64,000 nucleotides of DNA from an uncultured Clostridia bacterium (GTDB taxonomy: Bacteria; Bacillota; Clostridia; UMGS1883), in assembly GCA_947629005.1 (NCBI GenBank), contig CANRCD010000001.1, positions 62,001 to 126,000 on the forward strand. The letters run 5' to 3'. The notes under the pieces are model-generated. The model did not search any database. It was not told the origin of the DNA and saw nothing but the letters and a program-made list of their open reading frames with translations. How positions within the stretch are numbered: the stretch's first letter is position 1; each line of letters begins with the position of its first letter. Positions 4,801 through 10,746 of the stretch are shown piece after piece. The translations under genes were made by a program, and so were the position numbers.

Positions 4801-5823
4801 ATGGAAAATCCGCTGAAGGACGAGATTGAGCGCATAACCGCCGAGGTTCGCCGCGATCCGGCGCACATCAGGCGCTGGCTGGAAAAGGAGAAGGAGCTTA
4901 AAAAAACTCCTGAGCTTTTCCTGCGGCATAGGAGCTTTTTCACCGAGGATTTTGTGTTCGAGCCGGACGAGGACATCACCGTCTACCCCGACTTTAACTA
5001 TCCTTTGCCGCCGCGCGCGAAGGACGAGCCGCCCGAGTTCAGCGAGCCGGTAATGCACAGCCACGAGTTTTTTGAAATGTTTTACGTTTACAGCGGCGTG
5101 TGCGAGTGCTATTACGAGGACAGCGTCTACACGCTGCGCCCCGGCTCGCTGTGCCTGCTTAATACCTGCTGCCGCCACAGGGTGCGCAACATAGGGGACG
5201 AGAGCCTGATTTACAATATTATGCTCCGCCGCAGCGTGCTTTTGGCCGAGCTTCTGCCGGTACTCGGCGAAAACGACCTGTTTTTCAGTTTCTTTCTCGA
5301 TTCGCTCCACAGTCCGGCCGCAGGGCCCAACATAATCCTTTTCTCTCTTGAGTCGGGCGAGGCGGCGGAGCGATGGATATTTAACCTTATCCGCGAGTAT
5401 CGCCTGCGCCTTCCCAACAGTCAGAGCATGATGAAGCTGATGTACGCTTCGCTGCTGGTAGAGCTCTCCCGCAAATATCAGAGCGGGCCGCCCGCCGCAC
5501 GGGGGCCGGACTTTGCCGGCATAGCTTCATACATAAGCGAACATTGGAACGCTGTTACGCTTAAGGGCCTCAGCGCGGAGTTCCACTTGTCTCAGAGTAG
5601 CCTTTCGCGCTTGTTCAGGCGGCGGGTGGGGGCGGATTTTTCCGATTATATCCGACGCTTCCGTATGGAGCGGGCCGCACGCCTGCTGCTGCGGACGGCT
5701 CTTCCCATTGAGGAGATAGCCGCGATTTGCGGCTACAGCCAGCGTTCCTCGTTTGAGAAGGAATTTAAGAAGTACGCCGCGAGCACGCCCAGCGCCTACC
5801 GCCGTGCCTGCGGAAAAAAATAA
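4801..5823 (+). CDS. AraC-family transcriptional regulator with N-terminal cupin
   Basis: The 340-residue protein has an N-terminal cupin-like sensor domain (about 75-155, including HSHEFFEMFYV and the following RPGS turn) and a C-terminal pair of helix-turn-helix motifs (about 235-335). The second HTH has the family signature ending GYSQRSSFEKEFKKY. Such proteins bind a sugar through the cupin and activate nearby catabolic genes. It is transcribed divergently from the rhamnosidase, which is its most likely target. GGAGG at 4791-4795 sits 5 nt before the ATG. The ligand (rhamnose or a rhamnoside) is inferred from context only. Confidence 0.9.
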   Translation: MENPLKDEIERITAEVRRDPAHIRRWLEKEKELKKTPELFLRHRSFFTEDFVFEPDEDITVYPDFNYPLPPRAKDEPPEFSEPVMHSHEFFEMFYVYSGVCECYYEDSVYTLRPGSLCLLNTCCRHRVRNIGDESLIYNIMLRRSVLLAELLPVLGENDLFFSFFLDSLHSPAAGPNIILFSLESGEAAERWIFNLIREYRLRLPNSQSMMKLMYASLLVELSRKYQSGPPAARGPDFAGIASYISEHWNAVTLKGLSAEFHLSQSSLSRLFRRRVGADFSDYIRRFRMERAARLLLRTALPIEEIAAICGYSQRSSFEKEFKKYAASTPSAYRRACGKK

Positions 5824-5843
5824 AAAATTTTTTAAAAAAACTA

Positions 5844-5872
5844 TTGACAAATGAGTAAGCGAGGTATATAAT
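5844..5872 (+). promoter_or_regulatory. Sigma-A promoter of the cysK operon
   Basis: TTGACA (5844-5849) and TATAAT (5867-5872) are separated by 17 bp, an exact match to the consensus. It lies 57 bp before the cysK start. The expected transcription start near 5879 falls inside a palindrome, so this strong promoter is probably held down by a repressor. Confidence 0.88.
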
Positions 5873-5875
5873 ACC

Positions 5876-5904
5876 AATAAACATATCGGAAAAGTATGTT
5901 TATT
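5876..5904. promoter_or_regulatory. 29-bp palindrome over the cysK transcription start, probable operator
   Basis: AATAAACATA (5876-5885) and its exact reverse complement TATGTTTATT (5895-5904) flank a 9-nt spacer. The site begins 3 bp after the -10 hexamer and ends before the ribosome binding site at about 5913-5919, the usual place for a repressor operator. The second gene of the operon encodes an Rrf2-family DNA-binding protein, the obvious candidate to bind here. The palindrome is seen directly; the pairing with the regulator is inference. Confidence 0.7.
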
Positions 5905-5928
5905 CAAAAAATAAAGGAGTCTGATACA

Positions 5929-6861
5929 ATGTCCAGAATTTACAAATCCGCCGGAGAGTTGATCGGCAAAACTCCGCTGCTTGAGCTCGTTGGCATTGAG
6001 AAGAAGTACGGCCTTAACGCGAGGCTGCTCGCCAAGCTTGAGTATTTCAATCCCGCAGGCAGCGTCAAGGACAGGATAGCCAAGGCCATGATAGACGACG
6101 CCGAGGCGAGCGGCAAGCTTGTGCCCGGGTCGGTCATCATCGAGCCGACAAGCGGCAACACCGGCATAGGCCTCGCCTCGGTGGCCGCCGCGAAGGGGTA
6201 TAGAATAATTATCGTTATGCCCGAGACCATGTCGGTCGAAAGGCGGCAGCTCATGAAGGCTTATGGGGCCGAGCTTGTGCTGACCGATGGAGCCAAGGGC
6301 ATGAAGGGCGCCATAGCCAAAGCCGACGAGCTTGCCGCGGAGATTGAGAACAGTTTTATCCCCGGCCAGTTCGTTAACCCCGCCAACCCCAAGGTTCACC
6401 GCGAGACTACCGGCCCTGAGATTTTCGAGGATACCGGCGGCGAGGTAGATATCTTTGTCGCCGGAGTGGGTACCGGCGGCACCATTACCGGCGTCGGCGA
6501 ATATCTCAAGAGTAAAAAGCCGGACGTTAAGATTGTCGCTGTTGAGCCCGAGTCTTCTCCCGTGCTTTCGGGCGGGGCCAGCGGGCCGCATAAGATTCAG
6601 GGCATAGGCGCGGGCTTTGTGCCCGAGGTCCTGAACACCTCTGTCTATGATGAAATTATACCCGTATCGAATGAAAACGCCTTTGCTCTCGGCAAAGAGA
6701 TGGGCCGCACCGAGGGCGTGCTTGTGGGCATATCGAGCGGAGCGGCGCTCTATGCGGCCGTTGAGCTCGCCAAGCGTCCCGAAAACGAGGGCAAGACCAT
6801 AGTGGCTCTGTTGCCCGACACCGGTGATCGTTATCTTTCCACGCCCATGTTCGCCGACTGA
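5929..6861 (+). CDS. cysK: Cysteine synthase A (O-acetylserine sulfhydrylase)
   Basis: The 310-residue PLP enzyme makes L-cysteine from O-acetylserine and sulfide. The PLP lysine is in NPAGSVKDR (about K47), the substrate-binding loop is TSGNTG (about 74-79), and the phosphate-binding loop is GTGGTITG (about 176-183). An upstream in-frame ATG at 5896 exists, but it falls inside the palindrome and lacks a ribosome binding site. AAAGGAG at 5913-5919 fits the ATG at 5929, and the product then starts as usual for the family ([17 protein letters not shown]). It is first in the operon with an Rrf2 regulator and metY. In Bacillus subtilis CysK also acts as a cysteine-sensing partner of the Rrf2 protein CymR, so a similar role is possible here. 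Confidence 0.96.
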
Positions 6862-6887
6862 CACATTTCCAAATCACGGAGGCTGAA

Positions 6888-7313
6888 ATGAAAATATCCA
6901 CAAAAGGACGCTACGCGCTTAGAGTTATGATTGACCTTGCGGAGCGGTGCGGCGACGGGTATATCAAGCTCACGGATATAGCCGAGCGTCAGGACATATC
7001 AGAAAAGTACCTTGAGGGTATACTCGCTTCCATGACAAAGGCGGGGCTCCTTCAAGGGCTGCGCGGCAAAGGCGGCGGCTACCGCCTTGCCCTTTCGCCC
7101 GACAGCATAACCGCCGGCCGCGTCATAAGAGAGGCCGAGGGGACGCTTGCTCCGGTGTCTTGTCTGGAGGCGAGCCCCAATAACTGCCCGAGAGCCGCCG
7201 ACTGCAAAACGCTGCCGCTTTGGCAGGGGCTCGAAAAAACGGTGAACGCCTATCTCGACAGCGTCACCATCGCCGACCTTGCCTGCGGCGGCGCGGATAA
7301 TTACTGTATATAA
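6888..7313 (+). CDS. Rrf2-family regulator with IscR-like cysteine triad
   Basis: The 141-residue protein has the Rrf2 winged-helix start MKISTKGRYALRVMIDLA and a wing with RGKGGGYRLA (about 59-68). C92, C100 and C106 form a C-x7-C-x5-C pattern where E. coli IscR has its Fe-S ligands C92, C98 and C104; the spacing differs by two residues and the IscR ligand H107 is not obvious. Further cysteines lie at 21, 133 and 140. CymR-type Rrf2 proteins control cysteine metabolism without a cluster, whereas IscR and NsrR types bind one. Its place between cysK and metY and the upstream palindrome suggest autoregulated control of sulfur assimilation. Rrf2 membership is firm; Fe-S binding is inferred. Confidence 0.9.
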   Translation: MKISTKGRYALRVMIDLAERCGDGYIKLTDIAERQDISEKYLEGILASMTKAGLLQGLRGKGGGYRLALSPDSITAGRVIREAEGTLAPVSCLEASPNNCPRAADCKTLPLWQGLEKTVNAYLDSVTIADLACGGADNYCI

Positions 7314-7333
7314 ATAAATAAAGGAGAAAAACA

Positions 7334-8620
7334 ATGGCAGACTATAAATTTGAAACCCTTCAGATTCACGCCGGTCAGGAAAAGCCGGACCCCGCGACAG
7401 ACGCCCGCGCTGTGCCGATTTACGCCACTACGTCCTACGTTTTTAAGGACAGCGCACAAGCGGCGGGCCGTTTTGCTCTGACAGAGGGCGGCAATATCTA
7501 TACCCGACTTCAAAATCCCACGACCTCGGTCTTTGAGGAGAGGATAGCGGCTCTCGAGGGCGGCGCGGGCGCGCTGGCCACGGCTTCCGGTTCGGCGGCG
7601 ATAACATACGCCGTGCAGAATATAGCCCTCGCCGGCGACCACATTGTGTCGTCAACCAACCTTTACGGAGGAACGCACAATCTTTTCGAGAATACTCTTA
7701 AGGAGCAGGGCCTCAGCGTCACCTTTGTCGATCCCTCCGCGCCCGAAAACTTTGAGAAGGCCATACGTCCGAACACCAAGCTTCTATATGCTGAAACCCT
7801 CGGCAACCCAAATTCTGATGTGTTCGACATCAGAGCCGTTGCCGATATCGCACATAAGCACGGCATACCGCTGATAGTTGATTCCACCTTCGCAACGCCC
7901 TATCTGCTGCGCCCCATTGAGTACGGCGCGGACGTTGTGGTGCACAGCGCCACCAAGTTCATTGGGGGCCACGGCACCGTGATGGGCGGCGTTATCGTGG
8001 ATTCAGGCAAGTTTGATTGGGCGGCGAGCGGCAAGTTCCCGGGACTGAGCGAGCCCAACCCTTCGTACCACGGCATTGTGTTCACCGAGGCCTGCGGAAA
8101 TCTTGCCTACATCATGAAGATACGCACCACTCTTATGCGCGACCAAGGCGCGACCATTTCCCCCTTTAATTCCTTCCTTCTGCTTCAAGGGCTCGAAACG
8201 CTGTCGCTCAGGGTGGAGCGGCACGTGGAAAATGCCCTAAAGGTTGTCGAATACCTTAACAATCACCCTCAGGTAGAGAAGGTCAACCATCCCTCGCTTG
8301 CCACGGGCCGCGCAAAGGATCTTTACGACGAGTATTTCAAAAACGGCGCGGGCTCGATTTTCACGTTTGAAATCAAGGGCGGCGCCGAGACGGCCAAAAA
8401 ATTCACCGAGAGTCTGGAGCTGTTTTCGCTGCTGGCCAATGTGGCCGACGTAAAATCGCTCGTCATCCACCCCGCCAGCACCACGCACTCTCAGCTTGAC
8501 GAAAGGGCGCTGCTCGAGGGCGGTATTAAGCCCAATACCATCCGCCTTTCCATCGGCGTGGAGCATATCGACGACATTATAGCCGATCTCGAAAACGGAT
8601 TTAAGGCGGTGCGGGGCTAA
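7334..8620 (+). CDS. metY: O-acetylhomoserine sulfhydrylase (Cys/Met metabolism PLP enzyme)
   Basis: The 428-residue type I PLP enzyme is predicted to make homocysteine from O-acetylhomoserine and sulfide, or to carry out closely related gamma-replacement. The length and the start (ETLQIHAGQ) are typical of MetY rather than of the shorter MetB/MetC branch. The PLP lysine is in [12 protein letters not shown] (about K208). Other landmarks are YTRLQNPT (about 56-63) and the [12 protein letters not shown] segment. AAAGGAG lies before the ATG. Its position after cysK and the Rrf2 gene puts both sulfide-fixing routes, to cysteine and to homocysteine, under one control. Confidence 0.93.
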
Positions 8621-9174
8621 TGATAACAAGGGACGAGGCATTTGAGCTTCTAAAAGAGTATAACAAGGAGCCCTTTCACATAAAACACGCGCTTACGGTA
8701 GAGGGAGTAATGCGCTATTTTGCGCGAGAGATGGGTTACGGCGATGAGGAGGAGCTATGGGGCATAGTTGGTCTGCTGCACGACTTGGACTTCGAGCTGT
8801 ATCCCGACGAGCACTGCGTAAAGGAGCAGGAGATAATGCGCGAGCGCGGCATTGACGAGCGCATTATCCGCGCCGCGGCCAGCCACGGCTATGGGATAAC
8901 AGTGGATATCAAGCCCGAGCATGAGATGGAAAAGGTTCTCTTTGCCGTCGACGAGCTCACCGGCCTAATCGGCGCGGTGGCGCTGATGCGACCGTCGAGA
9001 AGTGTGGATGACCTTGAACTGAAGTCGGTCAGGAAAAAGTTCAAAACCCCGAGCTTTGCCGCCGGCTGCTCCCGCGAGGTCATCACCAAGGGGGCGGAAA
9101 TGCTCGGCTGGGAGCTTGACGACCTTATCTCGCGCACGATACTCGCCATGCGAACGGTGGCTCTGCCCGAATAG
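8620..9174 (+). CDS. HD-domain phosphohydrolase-like protein
   Basis: The 184-residue protein has an HD-domain pattern: an early His (IKHALTVEG, about H24), the paired HD in VGLLHDLDFE (about 54-55), and SHGYG plus DELTG further on. Such proteins often hydrolyse nucleotides or phosphate esters with a metal. The start codon overlaps the metY stop by one base, so it is translationally coupled to the sulfur operon. Nothing in the sequence gives the substrate; a link to sulfur metabolism rests on position only. A strong terminator follows directly. Confidence 0.8.
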   Translation: MITRDEAFELLKEYNKEPFHIKHALTVEGVMRYFAREMGYGDEEELWGIVGLLHDLDFELYPDEHCVKEQEIMRERGIDERIIRAAASHGYGITVDIKPEHEMEKVLFAVDELTGLIGAVALMRPSRSVDDLELKSVRKKFKTPSFAAGCSREVITKGAEMLGWELDDLISRTILAMRTVALPE

Positions 9175-9213
9175 AAAAAACGGCCCGCGAAGGCTTTCGC
9201 GGGCCGTTTTTTT
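9175..9213. terminator. Bidirectional intrinsic terminator
   Basis: A perfect 11-bp stem (9181-9191 with 9196-9206, loop GGCT) is flanked by six A on the left and seven T on the right. It can end the cysK operon on the plus strand and the convergent stalk-protein gene on the minus strand. Confidence 0.95.
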
Positions 9214-9222
9214 CGGCTGAAA

Positions 9223-10746
9223 TTATTCCAAATCGGCCTTAAACAGCGTCGGTACGGCGAGGTTATCCTCGTTCGCGACGTACTGCGTCAGGTAGACCGC
9301 GCCGTCGGATACCGTTATTTGGCAAAGGTCGGGCGAGCAGCAGGCGAACACAACATCTCCGTTCGGCCCGATGACGATTGCCTCGGCGGGGAAACCAGCA
9401 GTGCAGTCGAAAAACGCTATTACGTAATCGCCCTCGCTGTAAAGGCGAGTCGGCTCGGCCCCGCCGAAGAGCGGCTTGTCCTCGCCCGCGCGGTAAAGGG
9501 CCATATCGGTGTCCGTCCGCTGCACCTCAGCGTGAATGGGGTGGTTATACCCGCCGTTTTTGTAATATATTCCCGATGGGTTGACGGCGAATGTACTCTC
9601 GTATTTGAACGATTGGTCGCTGACGGTCTCGATTTTGCTTAACTCGCCGGAAGCAAGGTCGTATTTCATCAGCGCGGAGCCGTTTTCGCCCTCGTCTCTT
9701 ATGGCGTAGACCGCGCCGCCCGAAAGCACAAATTCGCCGCCGATGTTATCGTGCTTTATGTTGGGGATAAGCCTTTCGCACTCCAGCGTTTCGATGTCCA
9801 CGGCGTAAACGCTGTCGGATGATACGTTGTCGTCGCCGGCCAAAAGCAGCCTGCCGTCATATACGTCAACGCTGAGCCGTCCGTTGATAAACGCGGGATA
9901 AAAATTCAAACCGGGAACGGTTCGGCCGTTTACGGTCATCGCGCCGGAGCCGTACAGATCCTCAAACCGCACCTCCGCGTCGCCGATATAGAGCGCGCCG
10001 TCCGCCGAAGATTTCACCGTTCCGTCGGGGAACACGGTGTGCATGGCGACGAGCGTGCTGTGGTAGTGATCGTCAAGGCTCATTTCGCGCAGATAATACC
10101 TGCCCGCGCCCACGCCGTCGCTAAAGCCGTTGCCCTCGGCCTCGATGAACGCCGTTTTGCCCTCGGGCGTGGTTATCCGAAAGCTTTGGCCCTCGTGCTC
10201 GATTATCCAGCCGTTCCACAGCGACGCCTCGCAGCCCGCGTCCTCGCCGCAAAGGCCGTGGTTCGTCACGGTCAGGCCGTTTTCGTTAAAGCTCGTCTCC
10301 CAGCCGAAAAGGTCGTGGACAAAGCGCCATGTCAGCGGGAAGTAGGTTATTCCGCCTATGTTCAAAAGCGGGTATTCCTCGGCGGAATTGTCGATGGAAA
10401 CGCCGTTCACCGTTATGGGGTAGGAAGGGAGGCTTATCTCAAGGCTGCCCGAGGGTCCGTTCTCGGGGCGGTAAACGCCGGAAGGGTTGGTTGAGGTTAC
10501 GCTCAGGCCGTCCGCTTCGGTAAACGAGGACTTAAGCCCCAGAAAGGCCGCGTCGTAATACGTCATTGGGAAATATGTTATATCGTTATAGACCGCCAGC
10601 GGGTACCGCCGCGAGGAATTATCGGCTTCAATGCCGTTGAGCCGCACCTCAAACGAGGGGAGCGCCGCCTTGCCGGCCGCGGAAGCCGATACCGGCAGCG
10701 CAAGCGCCGCCGCCGCGGCGAGAGCAATAAGCAATTTCTTTTTCAT
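9223..10746 (-). CDS. Secreted stalk-domain (copper amine oxidase N-like) protein with beta-propeller-like C-terminus
   Basis: The product is about 507 residues. A signal peptide (about 1-25, ending VSASAAG) is followed by two similar repeats of about 60 residues (near 35-90 and 110-165). Each has an NG..xDNS..YPL...ITYFP.T pattern like the copper amine oxidase N-terminal or stalk domains of Clostridia. The remainder has repeating DG, VY and LY strand patterns like the DUF5050 propeller-type proteins. No catalytic residues were recognised. AAAGGAG fits the second in-frame ATG (spacing 7) and is too close to the first, so the shorter start is preferred. The gene has its own promoter and is convergent with the cysteine operon. 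It is probably exposed at the cell surface; its role is unknown. Confidence 0.82.
   Translation of the reverse strand: MKKKLLIALAAAAALALPVSASAAGKAALPSFEVRLNGIEADNSSRRYPLAVYNDITYFPMTYYDAAFLGLKSSFTEADGLSVTSTNPSGVYRPENGPSGSLEISLPSYPITVNGVSIDNSAEEYPLLNIGGITYFPLTWRFVHDLFGWETSFNENGLTVTNHGLCGEDAGCEASLWNGWIIEHEGQSFRITTPEGKTAFIEAEGNGFSDGVGAGRYYLREMSLDDHYHSTLVAMHTVFPDGTVKSSADGALYIGDAEVRFEDLYGSGAMTVNGRTVPGLNFYPAFINGRLSVDVYDGRLLLAGDDNVSSDSVYAVDIETLECERLIPNIKHDNIGGEFVLSGGAVYAIRDEGENGSALMKYDLASGELSKIETVSDQSFKYESTFAVNPSGIYYKNGGYNHPIHAEVQRTDTDMALYRAGEDKPLFGGAEPTRLYSEGDYVIAFFDCTAGFPAEAIVIGPNGDVVFACCSPDLCQITVSDGAVYLTQYVANEDNLAVPTLFKADLE

Follow-up and report, generated by a model that had tools for sequence, protein, structure and literature searches.

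A predicted autoregulatory Rrf2 operator in the cysteine operon of an uncultured Clostridia bacterium

In an uncultured Clostridia bacterium, a 29-bp palindrome that directly follows the exact-consensus promoter of a cysteine operon is predicted to be the operator of the Rrf2-type regulator encoded by the second gene of the same operon. The stretch of DNA analysed, 64,000 nucleotides long, is called the window here, and positions refer to it unless a contig or locus is named. Comparison with related genomes lends good support to autoregulation by Rrf2 and to a small sulfur regulon under its control. Judged from its sequence, this gut-type bacterium appears to use a single small regulator to switch both its cysteine genes and a methionine-type importer, and variant forms of the predicted DNA site are common to many relatives. 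The regulator itself is more interesting than the first-pass annotation of this DNA had seen, combining a cysteine triad like that of IscR with a C-terminal tail, DNYCI, that resembles the terminal-isoleucine tails of CysE and CymR.

Results

Promoter, palindrome and operon

A sigma-70-type promoter of exact consensus (12 of 12 matches) spans 5844..5872 of the forward strand, with TTGACA at 5844-5849, a 17-bp spacer and TATAAT at 5867-5872. Three bases, ACC, separate the -10 box from the palindrome AATAAACATA-N9-TATGTTTATT at 5876..5904, the predicted operator. Its left arm AATAAACATA occupies 5876-5885 and its right arm TATGTTTATT 5895-5904, with TCGGAAAAG as the spacer and AAACATA-N9-TATGTTT (5879-5901) as the core. 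The start codon of cysK lies 24 bp further on. Direct reading bears out the first-pass annotation in that an exact-consensus promoter is followed, 3 bp later, by a 29-bp palindrome in a cysteine operon. The palindrome had also been placed over the transcription start, and this agrees with the end of the -10 box at 5872: the start is expected near 5879, inside the palindrome, so that a bound dimer would block initiation.

An exact-consensus promoter by itself is not rare in the window, where TTGACA-17-TATAAT occurs three times, always on the + strand (at 5844, 10859 and 41206). The 29-bp pattern, allowing up to three mismatches, occurs once in the window and not at all in 100 dinucleotide shuffles, and the palindrome is present as a single copy in the whole genome (2,039,511 bases, 2.04 Mb). 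Its prediction as an operator draws on this uniqueness, on its conservation and on its rank under a motif matrix.

The gene order downstream of the palindrome is cysK-rrf2-metY, followed by a small HD-domain gene, with the regulator as the second gene, as the first-pass annotation had it. These genes, the Shine-Dalgarno sequence and the terminator all lie on the + strand. The Shine-Dalgarno sequence of cysK, AAAGGAG, is at 5913..5919. The cysK gene (5929..6861) encodes an O-acetylserine sulfhydrylase (cysteine synthase A; TIGR01139, 453 bits, cut-off 351), rrf2 (6888..7313) a winged-helix regulator of 141 amino acids and metY (7334..8620) an O-acetylhomoserine/O-acetylserine sulfhydrylase (TIGR01326, 649 bits, cut-off 495). 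The HD-domain gene (8620..9174; PF01966, 22.4 bits, cut-off 22), whose ATG overlaps the metY stop codon, is probably the last of the operon. An intrinsic terminator, consisting of a GC-rich hairpin plus a T run, follows at 9180..9213. No Rfam match was found within 5700-9400.

Structure and family of the regulator

The regulator belongs to the Rrf2 superfamily, with 128 bits for TIGR00738 (cut-off 73) and 129 bits for PF02082 (cut-off 30). It scores below the cut-off of the CymR equivalog NF047409 (112.3 bits, cut-off 195) and also below that of the IscR equivalog TIGR02010 (118.4 bits, cut-off 207.55). The AlphaFold2 model has a mean pLDDT of 91.6; its best match in the PDB is CymR (2y75, 41% identity) and the next is IscR of T. 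potens. The regulator is a single match in its own genome.

The triad C92-X7-C100-X5-C106 (codons 7161..7205, + strand) corresponds to the three cysteines that ligate the [2Fe-2S] cluster in IscR. It is invariant in alignments A1 and A2 (the latter of 69 sequences), and the pattern C-X(4-9)-C-X5-C is present in 101 of the 103 homologs with a readable end. The fourth ligand of IscR we take to be a histidine three residues after the third cysteine. That place is taken in the regulator by Leu109, which is conserved to at least 90% in A2; no histidine is present. Traits normally assigned either to CymR or to IscR occur together in this protein. Its most probable role is that of a repressor of CymR-like type linked to CysK, which may respond to an Fe-S cluster as well.

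A motif learned outside the family

Motif discovery used upstream regions, each at most 203 bases long, of rrf2 genes and of cysK where it runs in the same direction, taken from GTDB genomes and from the order. A palindromic search over all 120 regions yielded tAAaCCTAt-N7-aTAGGtTTa, with an occupancy of about 0.79. The 98 regions from outside the taxonomic family gave AAACCTA-N9-TAGGTTT (occupancy 0.80) with a log-likelihood of 432.7, the best models on six dinucleotide-shuffled sets reaching 69-89; the training regions contain one identical pair (L049 and L108) and one near-copy pair (L077 and L080). Under this outside-family matrix, 5878-5902 ranks first in the 64-kb window with 19.1 bits, the next place scoring 12.1. 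Simulation puts the expected number of 19-bit places per 2.04 Mb at 0.000 for the composition of the window and at 0.41 for an AT-rich upstream composition. Its top rank under a matrix from outside the family makes the palindrome a member of the motif of the regulator's relatives, and its assignment as the operator of an Rrf2-type protein is, on this comparison, well supported.

The window site differs from the family motif by an A for C at one position per half (CATA versus CCTA). Glu43 of the regulator never varies in A1, and its conservation in A2 is 90% or more. According to the available parts of the published IscR work, Glu43 contacts the exocyclic amines of both CC and CA in the type 2 site (PMC10783083, PMC8561392), and the C7'A8' half in hya is among the contacted sequences (PMC10783083). 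Acceptance of CC and CA bases by Glu43 renders the C-to-A change compatible with the same reading. No helix residue could be assigned to the change, CATA and CCTA sites sharing the same recognition-helix residues.

The motif search also returned a second dyad register, CCTATTAAAC-N5-GTTTAATAGG (CCTATtAaac-N5-gttTaATAGG), upstream of many rrf2 loci. At a width of 25 its likelihood exceeds that of the AAACCTA register (459.3 versus 432.7); at a width of 23 the AAACCTA register is better (373.1 versus 347.9). The second register possibly reflects overlapping sites, or a -10 box.

Conservation within the taxonomic family

The regulator is present in 13 of the 21 genomes of the taxonomic family. 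The order cysK-rrf2-metY is shared by three genomes of the genus, namely the bacterium's own, the sister species G005 and G001. In G005, whose proteins are close to those of the window (CysK 94%, Rrf2 87%), all 29 palindrome positions are the same as in the window, and the promoter spacer is changed at 6 of 17. The palindrome footprint for this gene order rests on G005, since the G001 contig ends inside cysK and its cysK promoter cannot be read. Phylogenetic footprinting had been proposed in the first-pass annotation as a check on the palindrome, and the identical copy in a relative with the same gene order speaks in its favour.

Related sites accompany the regulator in other genera. Under the outside-family matrix, CAATAACATA-N9-TATGTTTATC upstream of the regulator gene L008, from a second genus, scores 15.9 bits. 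In a third genus (L005-L007), AAACCTA-TTGACAAAG-TAGGTTT is located upstream of cysK, overlaps the -35 box and reaches 22.0-22.5 bits; the rrf2 genes of these loci have no good site of their own under the same matrix.

A different Rrf2, with about 52% identity, is found in the other five species of the genus. AATCATA-N9-TATGATT precedes the gene of this different Rrf2 at L009 and L011, and an imperfect form does so at L010 and L012. With the outside-family matrix, the sites of L009-L011 score 14.7-17.1 bits, and L012 and L013 give just 8.2 and 4.2 bits. These five species have a separate metY-cysK operon with weaker sites right after the -10 box, which score 11.5-18.7 bits when the family is included in the matrix. 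At L013, an insert of about 50 bp, with inverted ends and a tRNA T-arm-like stretch, splits the presumed operator some 30-90 bp 5' of rrf2.

A second predicted site upstream of metQ-metN

The genome was searched for further copies of the site. Neither the half-site, with up to three mismatches (103 places forward, 115 in the reversed control), nor a degenerate pattern (28 places, 59 in the reversed control) was enriched, and inspection of nine of the twelve two-mismatch places (L019-L027) revealed none upstream of an evident sulfur gene. Matrix scoring covered 15 of the 28 degenerate-search places, the window's own and 14 new ones (L159-L172). Among these 15 there is one other high scorer, TCAACCTATAGGAATAGTATGTTAA (16.7 bits), upstream of genes for a MetQ/NlpA lipoprotein and then a MetN-like ATPase. 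It directly follows a TTGACA-17-TATAAT promoter, a layout the same as at cysK. By chance, 2.04 Mb would contain 0.41 places with its score if composed like the window and 3.26 if AT-rich like upstream regions, so the score alone lacks genome-wide significance. As the 28 places are fewer than the 59 of the control, their number alone is uninformative, and the weight of the metQ site lies in its position and conservation.

The metQ site is kept in three species. It is identical in G005; in G001, the most distant of them, the version ACAACCTACAAAAAAAGTATGTTTT retains the half-sites and the same promoter position, with a changed N9 spacer. The metQ ortholog of G012 (67% identical) has no site, nor is there one upstream of nifS or the cysE-like gene of the bacterium's own genome (2.2 and 3.6 bits). 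The search for copies at sulfur genes, which the first-pass annotation had suggested, therefore delivered one, that at metQ-metN. Together with the G005 footprint, this conserved site lends comparative support to the autoregulatory sulfur circuit that the annotation had envisaged. The sites predicted for the control of cysteine synthesis and of sulfur uptake are those at cysK-rrf2-metY and at metQ-metN.

Two features of the metQ locus may be recorded here. A second consensus-like promoter is present upstream of metQ at L161:1540-1600, and in the same place in L177 and L178, with a single half-site, AACATA, after its -10 box; this arrangement is kept in three species. The MetQ/NlpA lipoprotein (L161:1627-2481, G000:C1:32885-33739) looks circularly permuted, its residues 28-166 matching the second half of PF03180 (96-234). 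In G009:C37:2134-2895 and G020:C24:35563-36291, the two PF03180 halves are in the other order compared with the L161 protein.

The C-terminal tail and CysK

The regulator ends in DNYCI (codons 7296..7310, + strand), a proposed CysK-docking peptide that follows a low-confidence linker; the two final blocks of the model have pLDDT values of about 44-66. The tails of 103 homologs end in isoleucine in 84 cases and fit [YFH]xI in 80, with tyrosine at -3 in 78 and D, N or E at -4 in 81; positions -7 to -12 are variable. DNYCI has the C-terminal isoleucine motif with which CymR is reported to engage CysK, and the CysE-like protein of the same genome ends in NDWEI. In the available parts of PMC12895370 and PMC4961446, CysK grips CysE and CdiA-CT by their terminal isoleucine; docking through such tails is reported for both CysE and CymR, and B. 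subtilis CymR is listed among the proteins with a C-terminal isoleucine motif (PMC12895370). By inspection, the peptide-binding residues of CysK (T, S and T of the TSGNT loop, plus a glutamine) are present in the CysK of the window.

The tail and CysK are not always found together. A tail of the [YFH]xI type is present at 42 of 47 loci with cysK and at 37 of 55 without (Fisher p = 0.009; 102 loci, one duplicate dropped), a test that ignores phylogeny and in which absence of cysK partly reflects short contigs. With 37 of 55 such loci, the tail is common also where no cysK is nearby, as would be expected if CysK merely had to be in the cell, or if there were another partner. Five loci near cysK (L016, L017, L074, L096 and L098) have no [YFH]xI tail. 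The tail at L005-L007, DNYVI, belongs to an operon rrf2-cysK-iscS. Their relative L008 (G008), grouped with them at 97 SH-aLRT in a quick tree that leaves 50 of its 97 inner branches open, has an rrf2-iscS-iscU operon and has lost the tail; no CysK was detected in this 96% complete genome at E 1e-3. This contrast speaks for docking on CysK; against it, a second, more distant Rrf2 of G008 (L015) ends in SNYVI, though the genome is without detected CysK. The operon of L005-L007 unites cysteine synthesis and Fe-S assembly.

Discussion

Proposed mechanism

Sequence comparison supplies the predicted operator with its conservation, its link to this family of regulators and its second copy at metQ-metN, besides the tail and the triad. 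From these we infer, as the probable course of events, binding, repression, docking on CysK and a signal of cysteine supply. An Rrf2 dimer on 5876-5904 would cover the transcription start of the strong promoter and block initiation, so that the cysK-rrf2-metY(-HD) operon would be repressed by its own second-gene product; the metQ-metN uptake operon would be repressed via its equivalent site. Cysteine supply probably sets the level of repression. At low O-acetylserine, CysK from the same operon would dock on the isoleucine tail and stabilise the DNA-bound regulator; when cysteine or sulfide runs short, O-acetylserine would rise, the tail would be freed and the operons derepressed. Such stabilisation is reported for B. 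subtilis CymR, and repression by CymR with CysK at low O-acetylserine is a published model, as given in the available parts of PMC3828012, PMC2940859 and PMC4961446; the tail and the neighbouring genes are our grounds for applying it to this regulator.

Several other explanations have to be weighed against this. The regulator might chiefly be an IscR-like Fe-S sensor, with a cluster on the triad alone setting DNA binding and an isoleucine tail that is no CysK peptide. The near-universal cysteine pattern of the homologs and its invariance in A2 would fit, as would the relatives in the family with rrf2-cysK-iscS or rrf2-iscS-iscU operons and the resemblance of the site to the IscR type 2 motif, as far as the available part of PMC4055776 gives it. 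However, the conservation of a tail after a variable linker (isoleucine at -1 in 84/103, tyrosine at -3 in 78/103) would then need another reason, the TIGR02010 score (118 bits) is well short of 208, the place of the histidine is taken by the conserved Leu109 and nifS of the same genome has no upstream site. We regard this explanation as rather unlikely, though much more probable than the three that follow.

Some other regulator could use the palindrome, for instance the AraC-type protein whose gene (4801-5823) adjoins it upstream on the same strand. Yet G005 has the identical site with no AraC-type match in the 551 bp before cysK, and the same motif occurs upstream of Rrf2-family genes in many genomes, which makes such a user very improbable. 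A hairpin in the leader RNA, in place of a DNA operator, can be drawn from the full repeat (-7.0 kcal/mol, z -2.04), but the start is expected inside the left arm, and a transcript beginning at 5879 is not predicted to form the hairpin any more (z -1.52). Considering also that the metQ site has an uncompensated stem mismatch in all three species (AACCTA/TATGTT) and that Rfam gives no match in 5700-9400, we attach hardly any weight to an RNA element. Chance, with the palindrome preserved merely through short divergence time, is suggested by the closeness of the sole same-order relative with a readable promoter (CysK 94%, Rrf2 87%); against it, 6 of 17 spacer positions have changed where all 29 palindrome bases stayed, and a matrix from outside the family ranks the palindrome first in the window. 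A coincidence of this kind is scarcely credible.

Relation to known systems

The preferred reading, an autoregulated Rrf2 operator, is close to what is known of CymR, the Rrf2 family cysteine repressor of Bacillus subtilis and Staphylococcus aureus that acts with CysK. Shared with CymR are the Rrf2 fold, with 2y75 as best structural match, and the C-terminal isoleucine motif; cysK and sulfur uptake, which CymR controls, are predicted targets here. Unlike CymR, the window regulator scores under the CymR cut-off, is encoded between cysK and metY and has two targets seen; unlike B. subtilis CymR, stated in the available part of PMC9338935 to bind no cluster, it has the cysteine triad. With IscR it shares three cysteines at the corresponding place and Glu43, whereas the fourth-ligand histidine is absent, the operon is without isc genes and the score is under the IscR cut-off. 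Clostridial Rrf2 proteins in comparable settings are the predicted CymR of Clostridium acetobutylicum, CAC2236, which adjoins cysK (CAC2235) as here, and Cpe1786 of C. perfringens, which adjoins isc genes and is raised on cysteine limitation (PMC3828012, PMC2940859).

The IscR type 2 motif is WWWWCCxYA-x7-TRxGGWWWW in the available part of PMC4055776. The window site resembles it in C at -8, G at +8, A/T flanks and spacing. The family consensus tAAaCCTAt-N7-aTAGGtTTa keeps WWWWCC but has TA for xYA, and in the window site both halves have CA where the motif has CC. The available parts of PMC3828012 and PMC2940859 note that the IscR and CymR motifs are similar, and say nothing of the present operator, of the tail or of tail and triad combined. 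Among the papers listed by literature searches, which covered few subscription journals and no RegPrecise motif pages, none describes the operator or this combination in its title or opening abstract. The first-pass annotation suggested that the operator may not be described in this lineage; the palindrome is a variant of the known, IscR type 2-like Rrf2 operator and no new kind. The observation is real, and ordinary in kind as an Rrf2 operator.

Uncultured gut Clostridia gain from this a concrete, testable cysteine regulon, with a predicted operator, regulator and two targets. Beyond it, there is some chance, tentatively put, that a widespread clostridial Rrf2 subgroup acts as a two-input sensor, reading cysteine via a CysK-docked isoleucine peptide and Fe-S status via the triad. 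Such proteins would stand between CymR and IscR, couple cysteine synthesis to cluster assembly and lose the tail with the neighbouring cysK. If tail and triad both work, one repressor would read cysteine synthesis and Fe-S assembly, both of which use cysteine as sulfur source, and this would help to clarify how the CymR and IscR families are related.

Among the clostridial rrf2 genes there are five (L066, L073, L079, L092 and L098) whose records are titled otherwise, as Alistipes, gamma proteobacterium, Myxococcales, Treponema and Paludibacteraceae; these are possibly mis-binned contigs or cases of transfer.
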